20,806 nucleotides of DNA from a virus. A program made the translations under genes and the position numbers. Below are positions 1,074-20,089 of this stretch, piece after piece. Under the pieces are notes generated by a model. It did no database searches. It worked only from the letters and a program-made list of their open reading frames with translations, and was not told the origin of the DNA. Each line of letters begins with the position of its first letter. Position 1 is the first letter of the stretch. The DNA lies in the IMG/VR virus record IMGVR_UViG_3300025168_000850, positions 1 through 20,806 of that record. One strand, 5' to 3'.

Positions 1074-1455
1074 GTGTTCTATTGTTTAATAAATAATTTT
1101 CAAGTGTTTCAATACATTCATCATAACCTTTGCATACTACTGCATAATAGCCTCTATCTAGTAAATCACTAATCCAATCTTTCTGTAATTGGCTAGGGTA
1201 ACAATTTTTATTCAATTTAATCTCTATAAATAGGCCAAAATACCCACCTTTAGCTGCTAGTATTTGAAGATCAGGAAAACCAGCGACATACCCTGTAGAT
1301 TTGGCCTTTTTTCTTTGGCTTATATGCTTCTGGTATTGTCCTCCTAAACTAGCGCAGTATCTTACATAAGGCCATCTATTTTTTATATAATTAACTACAG
1401 CTGTTTGTAATTCTGCCTCTGTCTTATGCTCTATAATGGCTGCCCTTAACTTCAA
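1051..1455 (-). CDS. VRR-NUC domain nuclease
   Basis: This 134-aa protein matches the VRR-NUC family of PD-(D/E)xK nucleases, which in phages are stand-alone structure-selective or Holliday-junction-type endonucleases. The signature residues are present in order: an N-terminal Glu (E13/E15, in TEAELQ), GFPD at 59-62 with D62, and the FIEIK motif at 77-81 with E78 and K80, followed by Gln residues in YPSQLQKDW. The reading frame opens with TTG at 1455 and no ATG lies upstream of the domain, so TTG is the likely start; it is preceded by AGAGA. It overlaps the upstream gene by 32 bp and the membrane protein downstream by 23 bp. It probably resolves branched DNA during replication or before packaging. 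Confidence 0.85.
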   Translation of the reverse strand: MKLRAAIIEHKTEAELQTAVVNYIKNRWPYVRYCASLGGQYQKHISQRKKAKSTGYVAGFPDLQILAAKGGYFGLFIEIKLNKNCYPSQLQKDWISDLLDRGYYAVVCKGYDECIETLENYLLNNRTHETKEIN

Positions 1456-2197
1456 TCTCTATGTGTTTTAATATTTCATAAAATTTATGATATAATGCTA
1501 TACAGCTTGCATACATTCTAGCAGTTTTAGGTATCATTAGCTCATCTAAGCTAACTCTTTCACCTGTTGATCTTCTCTTTTTTAAATCAGCTTGCCAGGA
1601 CTCAATAGCCTCTTTTCTGTATTGCTTAATATCATCTTTTGAGAGCTTAATATACTTCAAATTCCAAAAGTGATTAAATATAGCATAAGTAGCCCAATCA
1701 ATCTTAGGCTGTTTCATGGTCTTTCTCTCATCAATGTAGGGTATTATACATTTCTGTAAAAACTCATGCTCTATCGCGCTAATTTCAACCATTGTTGGCT
1801 TTTTATGTGCTATACTCAAGCTAGTACTTTTAAAATTCTTTATTTTATTAGCTTTATATGTTTTATATGCAGCTATCACTTTACCCATTGTAATAGAGTC
1901 TAGTTTCTGATACATTTCTATTCCTAGCTGACCAGCTACGCCTAATCTAAATGCGTGCTTTATTTCATCTGTGCTAAAATTACTAAAATTTTTTAATATA
2001 ACCCCATTTAGTACGCTCTCCTCAATCTCATTAAGCTGGTTATCCTTTTTAACATTAAGCAATACATAAAGATAATTAACCAGCTCAATAATCTTTTCAG
2101 GGCTTTCTAGGTGTTTTATTCTTTGCTCTCTGTAGTCATTACTATAAACTAACTCCAAAGGCGCGCTTTGTGTCGAAATCGCTAGCTCGTTTTTCAT
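1424..2197 (-). CDS. Uncharacterised replication-region protein
   Basis: This 257-aa, largely helical, basic protein has no catalytic motif that I recognise. Conserved-looking stretches are VLNGVILKNFSNFSTDEI (about 65-82) and SITMGKVIAAYKTYKANKI (about 101-119); the C-terminal half is rich in Lys, Arg, Tyr and Trp. It starts at ATG 2197 inside the 3' end of the DUF6291 replication gene (56-bp overlap) and is followed by the VRR-NUC gene. In phages with a DnaD-like or DUF6291 initiator, the next gene is often a helicase loader or a primosomal partner, so a loader role (compare lambda P) is a reasonable guess. No Walker A motif is visible, so it is not a DnaC-type ATPase. The function is unproven. 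Confidence 0.75.
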   Translation of the reverse strand: MKNELAISTQSAPLELVYSNDYREQRIKHLESPEKIIELVNYLYVLLNVKKDNQLNEIEESVLNGVILKNFSNFSTDEIKHAFRLGVAGQLGIEMYQKLDSITMGKVIAAYKTYKANKIKNFKSTSLSIAHKKPTMVEISAIEHEFLQKCIIPYIDERKTMKQPKIDWATYAIFNHFWNLKYIKLSKDDIKQYRKEAIESWQADLKKRRSTGERVSLDELMIPKTARMYASCIALYHKFYEILKHIEIEVKGSHYRA

Positions 2198-2720
2198 TTT
2201 TCTTAGTATTTAAGTTATCTCTTTTTAACCAATTCTTAGCTGTTAGGTATAAGTTTTTGTATTTAGTATTTCCTTTAAAATTCTCAATCTGATCTAAAAT
2301 ATCATTCACCTTTTGTTTATCATACTCATTAACTAATTTATCATAATCATCTAAATTAATTTGTAGGTGTGAGAACTTTCTATATACCCTTTCATTAACA
2401 TTAACATTTACATTATCATTTACATTAACATTAACATTAGGGGTTTTCTTGGGGTTTTTTAGGGGTTTTTTAGGGGTTTTTGGCCTACCTCCTTTCTTAC
2501 CTGAGTTAGCACCTTTTAAACCATTTAAATATCTTTTATGATTAGCATCAAGCTGAGGTTTTATAAGGCTAAATAAGGCTTTTTGTACATTATCAAGCTC
2601 TAACTCTTTTCTATCTAGCGCATAACTACAAATTGCATAATATAAATCTGCTGCTTGCTCAGTTGTTAGCGTTTTTGTGGCCTCAAAAAAAGACCTATAA
2701 AATATAAAAGAATCTCTCAT
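2142..2720 (-). CDS. DUF6291-type replication initiation protein with internal repeat linker
   Basis: From the ATG at 2720 the product is 192 aa; the frame also has a TTG six codons upstream, but the family begins MRDSFIFYRSF, so the ATG is right. Residues 1-65 form the DUF6291 domain, an all-helical DNA-binding-type module found at the N terminus of phage replication initiators. A basic linker GRPKTPKKPLKNPKKTP (about 78-94) and an Asn-Val tract (about 95-109) follow, then a C-terminal domain (about 110-180) with a YLTAKNWLKRD helix like those of DnaD/initiator C-termini. The linker DNA is repetitive (2394-2476) in a way that suggests an origin. The gene sits between a small HTH protein and an unknown replication-region protein, as O-like initiators often do. 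The initiator role is inferred from domain and context. Confidence 0.8.
   Translation of the reverse strand: MRDSFIFYRSFFEATKTLTTEQAADLYYAICSYALDRKELELDNVQKALFSLIKPQLDANHKRYLNGLKGANSGKKGGRPKTPKKPLKNPKKTPNVNVNVNDNVNVNVNERVYRKFSHLQINLDDYDKLVNEYDKQKVNDILDQIENFKGNTKYKNLYLTAKNWLKRDNLNTKKNEKRASDFDTKRAFGVSL
2394..2438. repeat. A+T-rich hexamer array (seven and a half units) inside the initiator gene
   Basis: On the plus strand the array reads as ATTAAC twice, ATTTAC, ATTATC, ATTTAC, ATTAAC twice and a final ATT. It has seven C and no G on that strand. It encodes the alternating Asn-Val tract of the DUF6291 protein. The order of variants is symmetrical about the central ATTATC unit. The array directly abuts the phased G-block repeat at 2440-2476. 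I read it as a candidate DNA-unwinding element; simple slippage repeats are the alternative. Confidence 0.85.
2440..2476 (+). repeat. Four GGGG blocks at exact 11-nt spacing (G-quadruplex motif, possible origin repeats)
   Basis: On the plus strand GGGG begins at 2440, 2451, 2462 and 2473, separated by 7-nt T-rich spacers (TTTTCTT, TTTTTTA, TTTTTTA). This meets the usual G4-N7 quadruplex pattern. The period of 11 nt is one DNA helical turn, so G-runs and T-tracts recur on the same helix face, a pattern that also bends DNA. The gene is on the other strand and 11 is not a multiple of three, so successive copies are read in different frames (TP-K, KPL, NPK) and protein-level selection cannot explain the regular spacing. 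Confidence 0.85.
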
Positions 2721-18113: not shown

Positions 18114-19676
18114 CTATATCGTAAAAAAGCCCTTATTATCTCGCTTGTATTTACTAACTACAGGAGCTTCAGAGTACATTTCCTCACCTACTGCCATACA
18201 CATAGCCATTATAGTATCTATTTTATCAGAGCTTTTTGCTTTGTTTGGCTTGATATTTCCAGCTGGATCGGTTTCAAGTTGCACATTTGCGAACTGCCAT
18301 CTTACTACAGGATCATTAAAGTATATTAAATCTCCTGTCATTACTTTGCTTTCTATCTCCTTTGCAGCTGGTGATAATGATTTATACCCCATACCGAATG
18401 CACTCATTTTAAGACCCTCCTCTATACATTCTATCACTAATTGACTACTATTCCATCTGTCATAAGCTATACTTTGCACCTGATACATCTCACATAGCTC
18501 AAACATTTTAGCTTTTACATAATTATAATCAGTAACATTGCCTGGTGTTATCTCTAAATGGTCTGCAAACTGCTGATAATTTACCCCATCTTTGCCTCCT
18601 GTTCTACCCTCATATTTGTCTTCAGGTATAAAAGTCCAATGCTTACAAATAATCTTTTCACCTATTCGCCATGATAAAACAAAGCTAGTTAAATCTCTAA
18701 CAGATGCTAAATCAAGGCCACCATAACAAGGCGCATTAAGTAAAACCTCCTCGCTTATAGTATCATTACAGGCTAGTATATCATGGTCTGCAAGCCAAGC
18801 TGTCATTGAGCCAGACCATAAGTTTAAATGGAGTCTCTTAAACAAATTAATATAACTAGGCTGAACTAATGCCTTTTTAACTTCACGCTCCATATATGAA
18901 CGCTTTAAAGATACATCTAAGCCAGGATTAGCTTTGGCCCATGTATCAGGATCACTTATATCATCATCTTCATCAGCCTCAAATATTACAGGTAAAAATT
19001 GCTCATCAATTAAACTACCATCTTTTACACGCTTTGCATAATCGTACATCTTATAACACGCACTAAACTTATCAAATCCAGCTGTAGTAATTGCTATAGA
19101 TATTGGGCTTTTTCTTGCTCCTGTAGATGTTTCTAGTACTTGCCAAAGGTTCTCAGTACCATCATCACGCATCCCATGTAGCTCATCATAGATAAAAGCG
19201 CTAGTATTAAACCCATGCTTTGTGCTTGTTTCTCTACTTATGGCTTTGTAAAAGCTACCCTGTGCATTATATACAATACTATTTTTAAATATTTCAACAA
19301 AACTTTCTAGCTTCGGATTATTTTTAACCATGTCAGCCACTACACTATATACAATCTTAGCTTGCTCTTTGTCATTGGCAGCGCTATAGTACTCAGCTCC
19401 GTACTCCTGATCTAAATATAATAGAGTAAGTATTATAGCAGCTGCTAATGTAGATTTGCCATTTTTTCTAGGTAGAAATATAAAAGCTGTTCTGTACTTT
19501 CGGCTATCATCTTCTTTATTTTTCCAACCAAATAAAGGTTTTATAATTTGTTCCTTTTGATATTCCTGTAAAATAAATGGAGTCTTTGCTAGCTCACCCT
19601 TTGTATGTGTTAGATGTGTTTCTATAAACTGAACAGCCTTGTTAGCTGTTTCTTCATCAAAATAATATTTACTCAT
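18114..19676 (-). CDS. terL: Terminase large subunit
   Basis: This 520-aa protein is the packaging ATPase-nuclease of the Terminase_1/HK97 type. The Walker A variant is LPRKNGKST at 68-76, Walker B is FIYDE at 161-165, and the coupling motif is at ITTAG (196-200). The C-terminal RNase-H-like nuclease has its acidic residues in GGLDLASVRD (D322), IAYDRW (D406) and the SSDKIDTIMA stretch (D484/D487). The length is standard and all key residues are intact. The ATG overlaps the stop of the methyltransferase gene by 4 bp. It acts with the small subunit and, in HNH-type cos phages, with the HNH protein to cut and translocate DNA into the prohead. Confidence 0.96.
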   Translation of the reverse strand: MSKYYFDEETANKAVQFIETHLTHTKGELAKTPFILQEYQKEQIIKPLFGWKNKEDDSRKYRTAFIFLPRKNGKSTLAAAIILTLLYLDQEYGAEYYSAANDKEQAKIVYSVVADMVKNNPKLESFVEIFKNSIVYNAQGSFYKAISRETSTKHGFNTSAFIYDELHGMRDDGTENLWQVLETSTGARKSPISIAITTAGFDKFSACYKMYDYAKRVKDGSLIDEQFLPVIFEADEDDDISDPDTWAKANPGLDVSLKRSYMEREVKKALVQPSYINLFKRLHLNLWSGSMTAWLADHDILACNDTISEEVLLNAPCYGGLDLASVRDLTSFVLSWRIGEKIICKHWTFIPEDKYEGRTGGKDGVNYQQFADHLEITPGNVTDYNYVKAKMFELCEMYQVQSIAYDRWNSSQLVIECIEEGLKMSAFGMGYKSLSPAAKEIESKVMTGDLIYFNDPVVRWQFANVQLETDPAGNIKPNKAKSSDKIDTIMAMCMAVGEEMYSEAPVVSKYKRDNKGFFTI

Positions 19677-20089
19677 AATATTACTATCATACTATCGTGC
19701 ATACCACACTTATTTTTAACTAATTCGCCTTTTGTATTATATCCAATAAATTTTATACGACCTTTTAAAAATCTAATATCTTTTGCGTTTGGCAAAATAT
19801 GTTCATGAAATAAAATAGTTGATGTGCTAACAGGAATTAGCAATATTGACTTTTTACCTTTTTTACTTTCTGCAATAGCTTTTTTAACAAAAGCATCTTT
19901 TAATTTTCTACTATAAGGAGGATTTACAAAATTTACATCATGCCAATCTATATCTAATCCATCCCAATCATTTATATTATGATTTAATGGGCAAGGATCG
20001 AACATGTTACCAAACTCCTCGTATAATGGTTTCATGATATAATCAGGTGTAGCCCAATTATCAGAATGGTTTAAATTTCTATTTTTCAT
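19673..20089 (-). CDS. Phage Dam-like DNA N6-adenine methyltransferase
   Basis: This 138-aa protein matches the short phage Dam family (DNA N-6-adenine-methyltransferase). It begins with the family's NWATPDYIMKPLYEEFG (11-27), the SAM-binding FDPCP (30-34), the catalytic NPPYS (56-60), a SKKGKKSILLIPVSTST strand and the C-terminal GRIKFIG plus DSMIVI strands. It transfers a methyl group from SAM to adenine in DNA, probably in a short site, to protect phage DNA from host restriction or to mark it. It overlaps both neighbours by 4 bp and sits between the two terminase genes, which is not the usual place. Confidence 0.93.
   Translation of the reverse strand: MKNRNLNHSDNWATPDYIMKPLYEEFGNMFDPCPLNHNINDWDGLDIDWHDVNFVNPPYSRKLKDAFVKKAIAESKKGKKSILLIPVSTSTILFHEHILPNAKDIRFLKGRIKFIGYNTKGELVKNKCGMHDSMIVIL

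Follow-up and report, generated by a model that had tools for sequence, protein, structure and literature searches.

An 11-nt iteron row and adjoining TAATGW array inside a phage DUF6291 gene: a probable replication origin within its initiator gene

The window analysed here, the whole 20,806 bp of one IMG/VR virus record that is itself a fragment, carries all its main genes on one strand. Its DUF6291 (PF19808) gene occupies positions 2142-2738 of the minus strand (Pfam E=2e-21) as an open reading frame from the TTG at 2738; the ATG at 2718-2720 is the likelier start, judging by relatives, which begin there (MRDSF...). It encodes a predicted three-helix N-terminal domain, the DUF6291 domain (2478-2711, minus strand), a tail, KGANSGKKGGRP (2481-2516, minus strand), coded immediately ahead of the first repeat described below, a linker and a C-terminal domain (YRKFSHLQ...NWLKRD; 2217-2384, minus strand) recognised from PHROG matches and relatives. 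In the AF2 model of the window protein the helical N-terminal domain is confident and the linker disordered. PHROG names and gene neighbours point to an initiator role for the protein: residues 85-179 weakly match phrog_13246, a replisome organizer, and the C-terminal domain, by its likeness to relatives, is probably a primosome or helicase-loading module. The Pfam scan of the window protein returns PF19808 only and no RepA_N (PF06970), though a remote structural kinship with RepA_N may exist. A structure search with the AF2 model and PDB profile searches gave nothing convincing for the DUF6291 fold, and the C-terminal domain has no PDB match; a profile match of the latter to methionine sulfoxide reductase (E 6e-4) looks like chance. 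The downstream gene (1424-2197, minus strand, 257 aa) encodes a phrog_26016 protein, a PHROG of unknown function, in the slot where relatives have a G39P-like loader or a DnaB helicase. Farther off, between terminase-region genes, an ORF with an NPPYS motif (19673-20089, minus strand) resembles, by its sequence, a phage DNA adenine methyltransferase.

On the plus strand GGGG begins at 2440, 2451, 2462 and 2473, a pitch of 11 nt and exactly the positions given in the first-pass annotation. TRF finds an 11-nt repeat of 4.1 copies at 2437-2481 and, directly adjoining, a 6-nt repeat of 7.8 copies at 2393-2439. There are two overlapping occurrences of G4-N7-G4-N7-G4 in the window against none in 100 dinucleotide shuffles. 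The coding (minus) strand reads AAAACCCCTAA four times. Counted along this strand, the copies are iteron 1 (2470-2480; plus strand TTAGGGGTTTT, GGGG 2473-2476), iteron 2 (2459-2469; plus strand TTAGGGGTTTT, GGGG 2462-2465), iteron 3 (2448-2458; plus strand CTTGGGGTTTT, GGGG 2451-2454) and iteron 4 (2437-2447; plus strand TTAGGGGTTTT, GGGG 2440-2443). The CCCC starts on the minus strand fall in codon phases 1, 0, 2 and 1, spanning all three, so that the four copies are translated in different frames, as had been claimed. No 11-nt self-match in the whole 20.8-kb record is stronger than this array, and within the window gene alone the 11-nt self-identity exceeds both a synonymous-codon null (P = 0.003) and a codon-order null (20,000/20,000 trials).

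Iteron 4 meets, at the conserved junction CCT-AATG, an array of TAATGW hexamers (2393-2439, minus strand), which read as the codons AAT-GTW-AAT-GAT and encode NVNVNVNDNVNVNVN (2394-2438). The first-pass annotation had described four G-repeats, which holds for the iteron half of the structure and leaves out the hexamer half; the A+T-rich region that it mentioned beside the repeats of lambda-type origins has its counterpart here in this directly adjoining TAATGT array, probably a DNA-unwinding or loading element. The 20.8-kb fragment contains no second array. Its GC skew has a single sign throughout and does not switch at the array, the search for DnaA boxes returned a single 1-mismatch match at 2772, which is background level, and a nucleotide search of public phages with the 2.7 kb around the array gave no match.

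Relatives were collected as 80 loci by a protein search of IMG/VR, and their DNA from the DUF6291 domain to the NVN run was cut into 11-mers counted from the junction and aligned by eye. Four to eight short cores occupy the stretch from the DUF6291 domain codons to the (TAATGW)n array. Relatives about 80-90% identical in protein carry AACCCC-N5 (L003, L023), AAGCAAA-N4 (L004, L005, L007, L008) or AACCAAA-N4 (L006, L022), the latter two classes being free of G-runs; at 35-50% identity the same classes are found, or else CAACCAA, TAGCAAA or one of the palindromic classes ACCnnTGGTT and AACCCCnnAGGGGTT. Across the 80 loci the 11-nt pitch thus stays while the core class changes, and because the core is conserved while spacer bases vary, the arrays are not recent slippage products. 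Most of the 75 canonical members belong to the AAGC or AACC class; the spacing of successive AAGC cores is a multiple of 11 in 143/180 cases and that of successive AACC cores in 131/210, the remainder of the latter being mostly 5+6 splits. For autocorrelation the last 66 nt of each of 69 distinct linkers were used. Lags 11, 22 and 33 give self-identities of 0.591, 0.567 and 0.582, the lag-11 value standing against 0.441 +/- 0.008 under synonymous recoding and 0.365 under codon shuffling, with z-scores that overstate independence because the linkers are related; the best lag within 4-18 is 11 in 54 of the 69. The spacing had been predicted to be kept at DNA level even where residues differ, which is what dozens of relatives show, and the accompanying claim that protein selection cannot maintain it is borne out by a pitch that survives residue changes and by the rejection of the synonymous-codon null. 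Seven loci (L335, L438, L329, L396, L072, L050 and L336) possess palindromic iteron classes with a repeat of 22-24 nt, i.e. two turns, such as AACCACTGGTT; these would suit dimeric binding.

DNA-level constraint extends to the hexamers. The junction xxCT-AATG is present in 71/75 canonical members, and codon usage was compared in protein-found loci only, as loci selected by pattern bias the codon counts. In 11 relatives with GC >= 0.43, Asn within the array is encoded by AAT 81 times versus AAC once, whereas elsewhere half of the Asn codons are AAC; Val within the array of the same relatives is GTA or GTT in 54/54 codons, compared with 54% elsewhere. Iterons and hexamer array together are therefore held at DNA level independently of the protein. 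A scan of IMG/VR for TAATGTWAATGTWAATGWTAATG yielded at least 117 matches in the NVN frame, nearly all of them in DUF6291-like genes, and in a genome collection array genes occur in MAGs labelled Clostridia, Bacilli, Bacteroidota and Spirochaetes, among unrelated simple repeats. Pfam recognises PF19808 in 49 of 50 sampled array-bearing proteins (49 from contigs of the TAATGTWAATGTWAATGWTAATG scan and the window's own) and, by contrast, Pfam DnaB_2 and NCBIfam DnaD_dom in just 2/50. The C-termini differ among array-bearing proteins, with PHROG matches to primosomal protein (23 members), DnaD-like helicase loader and O-like replication initiation protein. That the ladder is kept across many kinds of C-terminal domain points to recognition by the common N-terminal domain, to a host factor or to easy melting. 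A TAATGW ladder is also found in a different initiator-like protein (MAKTIIEREFWNDEQ...), unlike the usual DUF6291, at L259:5883-6863 (minus strand) and in L352 (Anaerococcus senegalensis), and such ladders may be common to other phage initiator families.

Fourfold AACCCC was further searched in IMG/VR by DNA alone at pitches of 10, 11 and 12 nt. At pitch 11 there are 68 stretches, 43 of them in ORFs with a DUF6291-type N-terminus and 25 outside recognised DUF6291 ORFs; at pitch 12 there are 106, with 6 weak matches to the DUF6291 profile that lack NxNxN and a GGRP tail, and at pitch 10 five, none in DUF6291 genes. Two 11-nt AACCCC arrays (L591:1497 and L600:748) lie in or near other initiator-like ORFs that the DUF6291 profile misses. 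Five contigs, G001 (L583), G002 (L584), G003 (L614), G004 (L601) and G006 (L597), contain a second 11-nt AACCCC array, in a stretch that lacks a long open frame and lies 10-25 kb away from the DUF6291 gene, so that 11-nt sites occur also where they have no protein to encode. The in-gene class of these contigs is AACCCC in G004 and G006, RACCCC x7 in G001 and the ACCnnTGGTT palindrome in G002 and G003. In G001-G003 the intergenic region has the ACCnnTGGTT palindrome, with nearly the same spacer (CATCATGTAAAACC), beside the AACCCC array, and two iteron classes thus stand together. The second arrays of all five contigs are possibly an oriR analogue or a site for rival initiators.

In L027, L072 and L080 the DUF6291 gene is followed by one for a G39P-family helicase loader, and in L033, L046 and L064 by one for a DnaB helicase. 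The sole PLSDB match is a circular 51-kb element of Bacteroides finegoldii (L641:2501-3175, NZ_OY725926.1), annotated as a plasmid, with dnaB directly after its DUF6291 gene and a phage-type integrase. In the phage NrS-2 (L323) the cumulative GC-skew minimum at 17.5 kb lies no more than about 1.5 kb from the DUF6291 gene at 18.6 kb and coincides with a change of gene orientation; in the Riemerella phage GRNRAP2 cumulative GC skew is uninformative on the origin.

Core class goes together with the residues that follow the last helix of the DUF6291 domain. Among the 75 canonical members the tail KGAxxGxxGGRP accompanies the AACCCC class in 8/9, GGRP the AACCAAA class in 22/22 and GGAPxGN the CAACCAA class in 2/2, and 30/30 of the AAGCAAA class are without a GGRP-type or GGAPxGN tail; the TAGCAAA class is left out as evidence because its iterons encode part of the tail. 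In the independent, DNA-selected AACCCC set the KGAxxGxxGGRP tail occurs in 41/43. Both the Riemerella phage GRNRAP2 and the Nitratiruptor phage NrS-2 have a GGRP tail and cores of the AACC class. The B. finegoldii element, which played no part in defining the rule, has the tail KGAVFGKKGGRP and, as predicted from it, AACCCC cores at 11-nt pitch that end in AACCCG-TAATG. On a tree of the domain only, core class needs at least 21 changes: the domains of the window and of L005 are 98% identical, yet L005 is of the AAGCAAA class, and L004 and L022 have identical domains with different core classes. Where AAGC and AACC-type classes switch on well-supported branches, the tail agrees in 3/3 independent pairs (p = 0.25), and since tail and iterons are adjacent such a match is also expected from their joint transfer by recombination. 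The idea that the tail of about 12 residues (KGAxxGxxGGRP, GGRP, GGAPxGN or a lysine-rich KxKxK) reads the class of the adjacent 11-bp iterons (AACCCC, AACCAAA, CAACCAA or AAGCAAA), and that tail and iterons swap as a unit between otherwise identical initiators, is evenly poised between true and false. If true, such swapping would set replicon compatibility groups, and for thousands of uncultured phages the sequence would be enough to read both origin and specificity.

What such a row of sites does may be read in several ways. The G-quadruplex of four GGGG runs acting at initiation, which the first-pass annotation offered as one option, suits the window and other members of the AACCCC class, which fit G4-N7. 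It is nonetheless very improbable as the conserved element, because G-runs occur in that class only: relatives about 80-90% identical hold the same pitch with AAGCAAA or AACCAAA cores free of G-runs, and the AAGC and AACC classes account for most canonical members. Intrinsic bending, with selection on curvature and not on sequence recognition, fares little differently, and we give it hardly any credence. The window array indeed has the highest predicted curvature in the record, and TAGCAAA-class arrays are also extreme, but in the same calculation, which used approximate wedge parameters, the AACCAAA and CAACG arrays, at median percentiles of 0.81 and 0.66, show no unusual curvature. The bending proposed in the first-pass annotation thus describes the window array and not the classes at large; as the latter two do not stand out, curvature is not the conserved property, and it would leave unexplained why core specificity is tied to the protein tail. 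A slippage-made low-complexity linker, or a recombination hotspot that swaps initiator domains, with no role in protein binding, would be in keeping with the wide variety of C-terminal domains found behind a single N-terminal family and with the low complexity of the linkers. Conserved cores with varying spacers, a pitch out of frame, the rejected synonymous null, the existence of non-coding arrays and the failure of the 10- and 12-nt controls make this reading next to untenable.

A different question is posed by sites that DUF6291 or another phage protein binds for autoregulation, incompatibility, partition or a replication switch, and not as an origin. Binding and origin function are inseparable in silico, and the arrays in non-coding DNA 10-25 kb away in the five contigs imply that the sites can act apart from the gene. 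Iterons at a fixed phase to a conserved AT-rich array, within a cassette of initiator, loader and helicase, are however the standard layout of an origin, and a purely non-origin role appears unlikely.

The reading preferred here, which we hold to be highly probable, is an origin of replication lying within the DUF6291 initiator gene, with the repeats as the half to which the initiator binds. That the array acts as an origin, and that the DUF6291 protein binds it, is what we infer from sequence. DUF6291 proteins, through domain and tail, would bind the cores as one monomer per helical turn, all on the same face of the DNA, and form an ordered row; this row would strain and melt the adjoining AT-rich hexamer array, whereupon the C-terminal primosome or DnaD-like domain, or a neighbouring G39P-like loader, could recruit the DnaB helicase for theta replication. 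On this view the linker peptide would be mainly a by-product that must remain hydrophilic and stop-free, and DNA-level selection would explain the odd NVNVN linkers. A very large phage family keeps a row of one-per-turn sites inside its DUF6291 gene, most likely at the place where the protein starts the copying of the genome. Most uncultured phages have, to our knowledge, no known replication origin; in this family it would be readable from DNA as a rigid 11-bp core array with a TAATGW ladder inside DUF6291 genes, in IMG/VR phages, the cultured Riemerella and Nitratiruptor phages and the circular Bacteroides element, as well as in many contigs from gut MAGs. DUF6291, by name a domain of unknown function, would gain a role, and the family offers a natural series of switches in initiator-site specificity with the remainder of the protein barely changed. 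Our literature search returned no paper on DUF6291, on NVNVNV in phages or on an 11-bp in-gene phage origin, its scope lying outside most subscription journals (e.g. for TP901-1/Tuc2009-type origins). The layout of an in-gene origin is known already; the DUF6291 version appears to be new, though it may have been noticed elsewhere before.

Repeats within the initiator coding sequence and an adjoining AT-rich candidate unwinding element, as found in the window and its relatives, are shared with several known systems. The SPP1 initiator binds both oriL, which lies within gene 38, and oriR at another place in the genome, and the loader gp39 and the DnaB helicase gp40 are encoded next to the initiator gene (PMC6316719). 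Direct repeats with an AT-rich unwinding element in the initiator gene are the common layout (PMC6316719), and DUF6291 relatives resemble SPP1 also in their G39P-family loaders and, in some, a second, non-coding array; the differences are the DUF6291 initiator and the 11-bp single-turn cores of several classes. In ori-lambda, too, iterons adjoin an AT-rich tract midway through the initiator gene O, and the origin codes for a linker (PMC7466680). However, the lambda iterons are inverted repeats of about 19 bp, whereas those of the window are 11-nt direct repeats, and DUF6291 arrays in general consist mostly of short direct 11-bp cores with a palindromic minority at 22-24 bp. Bacillus DnaD has as its recognition element paired 5'-TnnT-3' in single-stranded DNA (PMC10201434). 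TnnT recurs at most codon steps along the coding strand of the hexamers, and a DnaD/DnaB_2 C-terminal domain is present in a few relatives; the ladder, however, persists with many unrelated C-terminal domains beyond the two sampled proteins in which DnaD is recognised, and that DnaD-like parts recognise the ladder is no more than a guess. In RepA_N plasmids, pSK41 among them, rep combines an N-terminal binding domain, central Rep boxes that code a dispensable linker and a C-terminal DnaD-like domain (PMC5703833), and DUF6291 genes appear to have the same layout as pSK41 rep described there. At sequence level RepA_N is another Pfam family, and it belongs to plasmids whereas the DUF6291 array lies in a phage; the hexamer array, absent from the RepA_N description in the consulted part of PMC5703833, further sets the DUF6291 genes apart.
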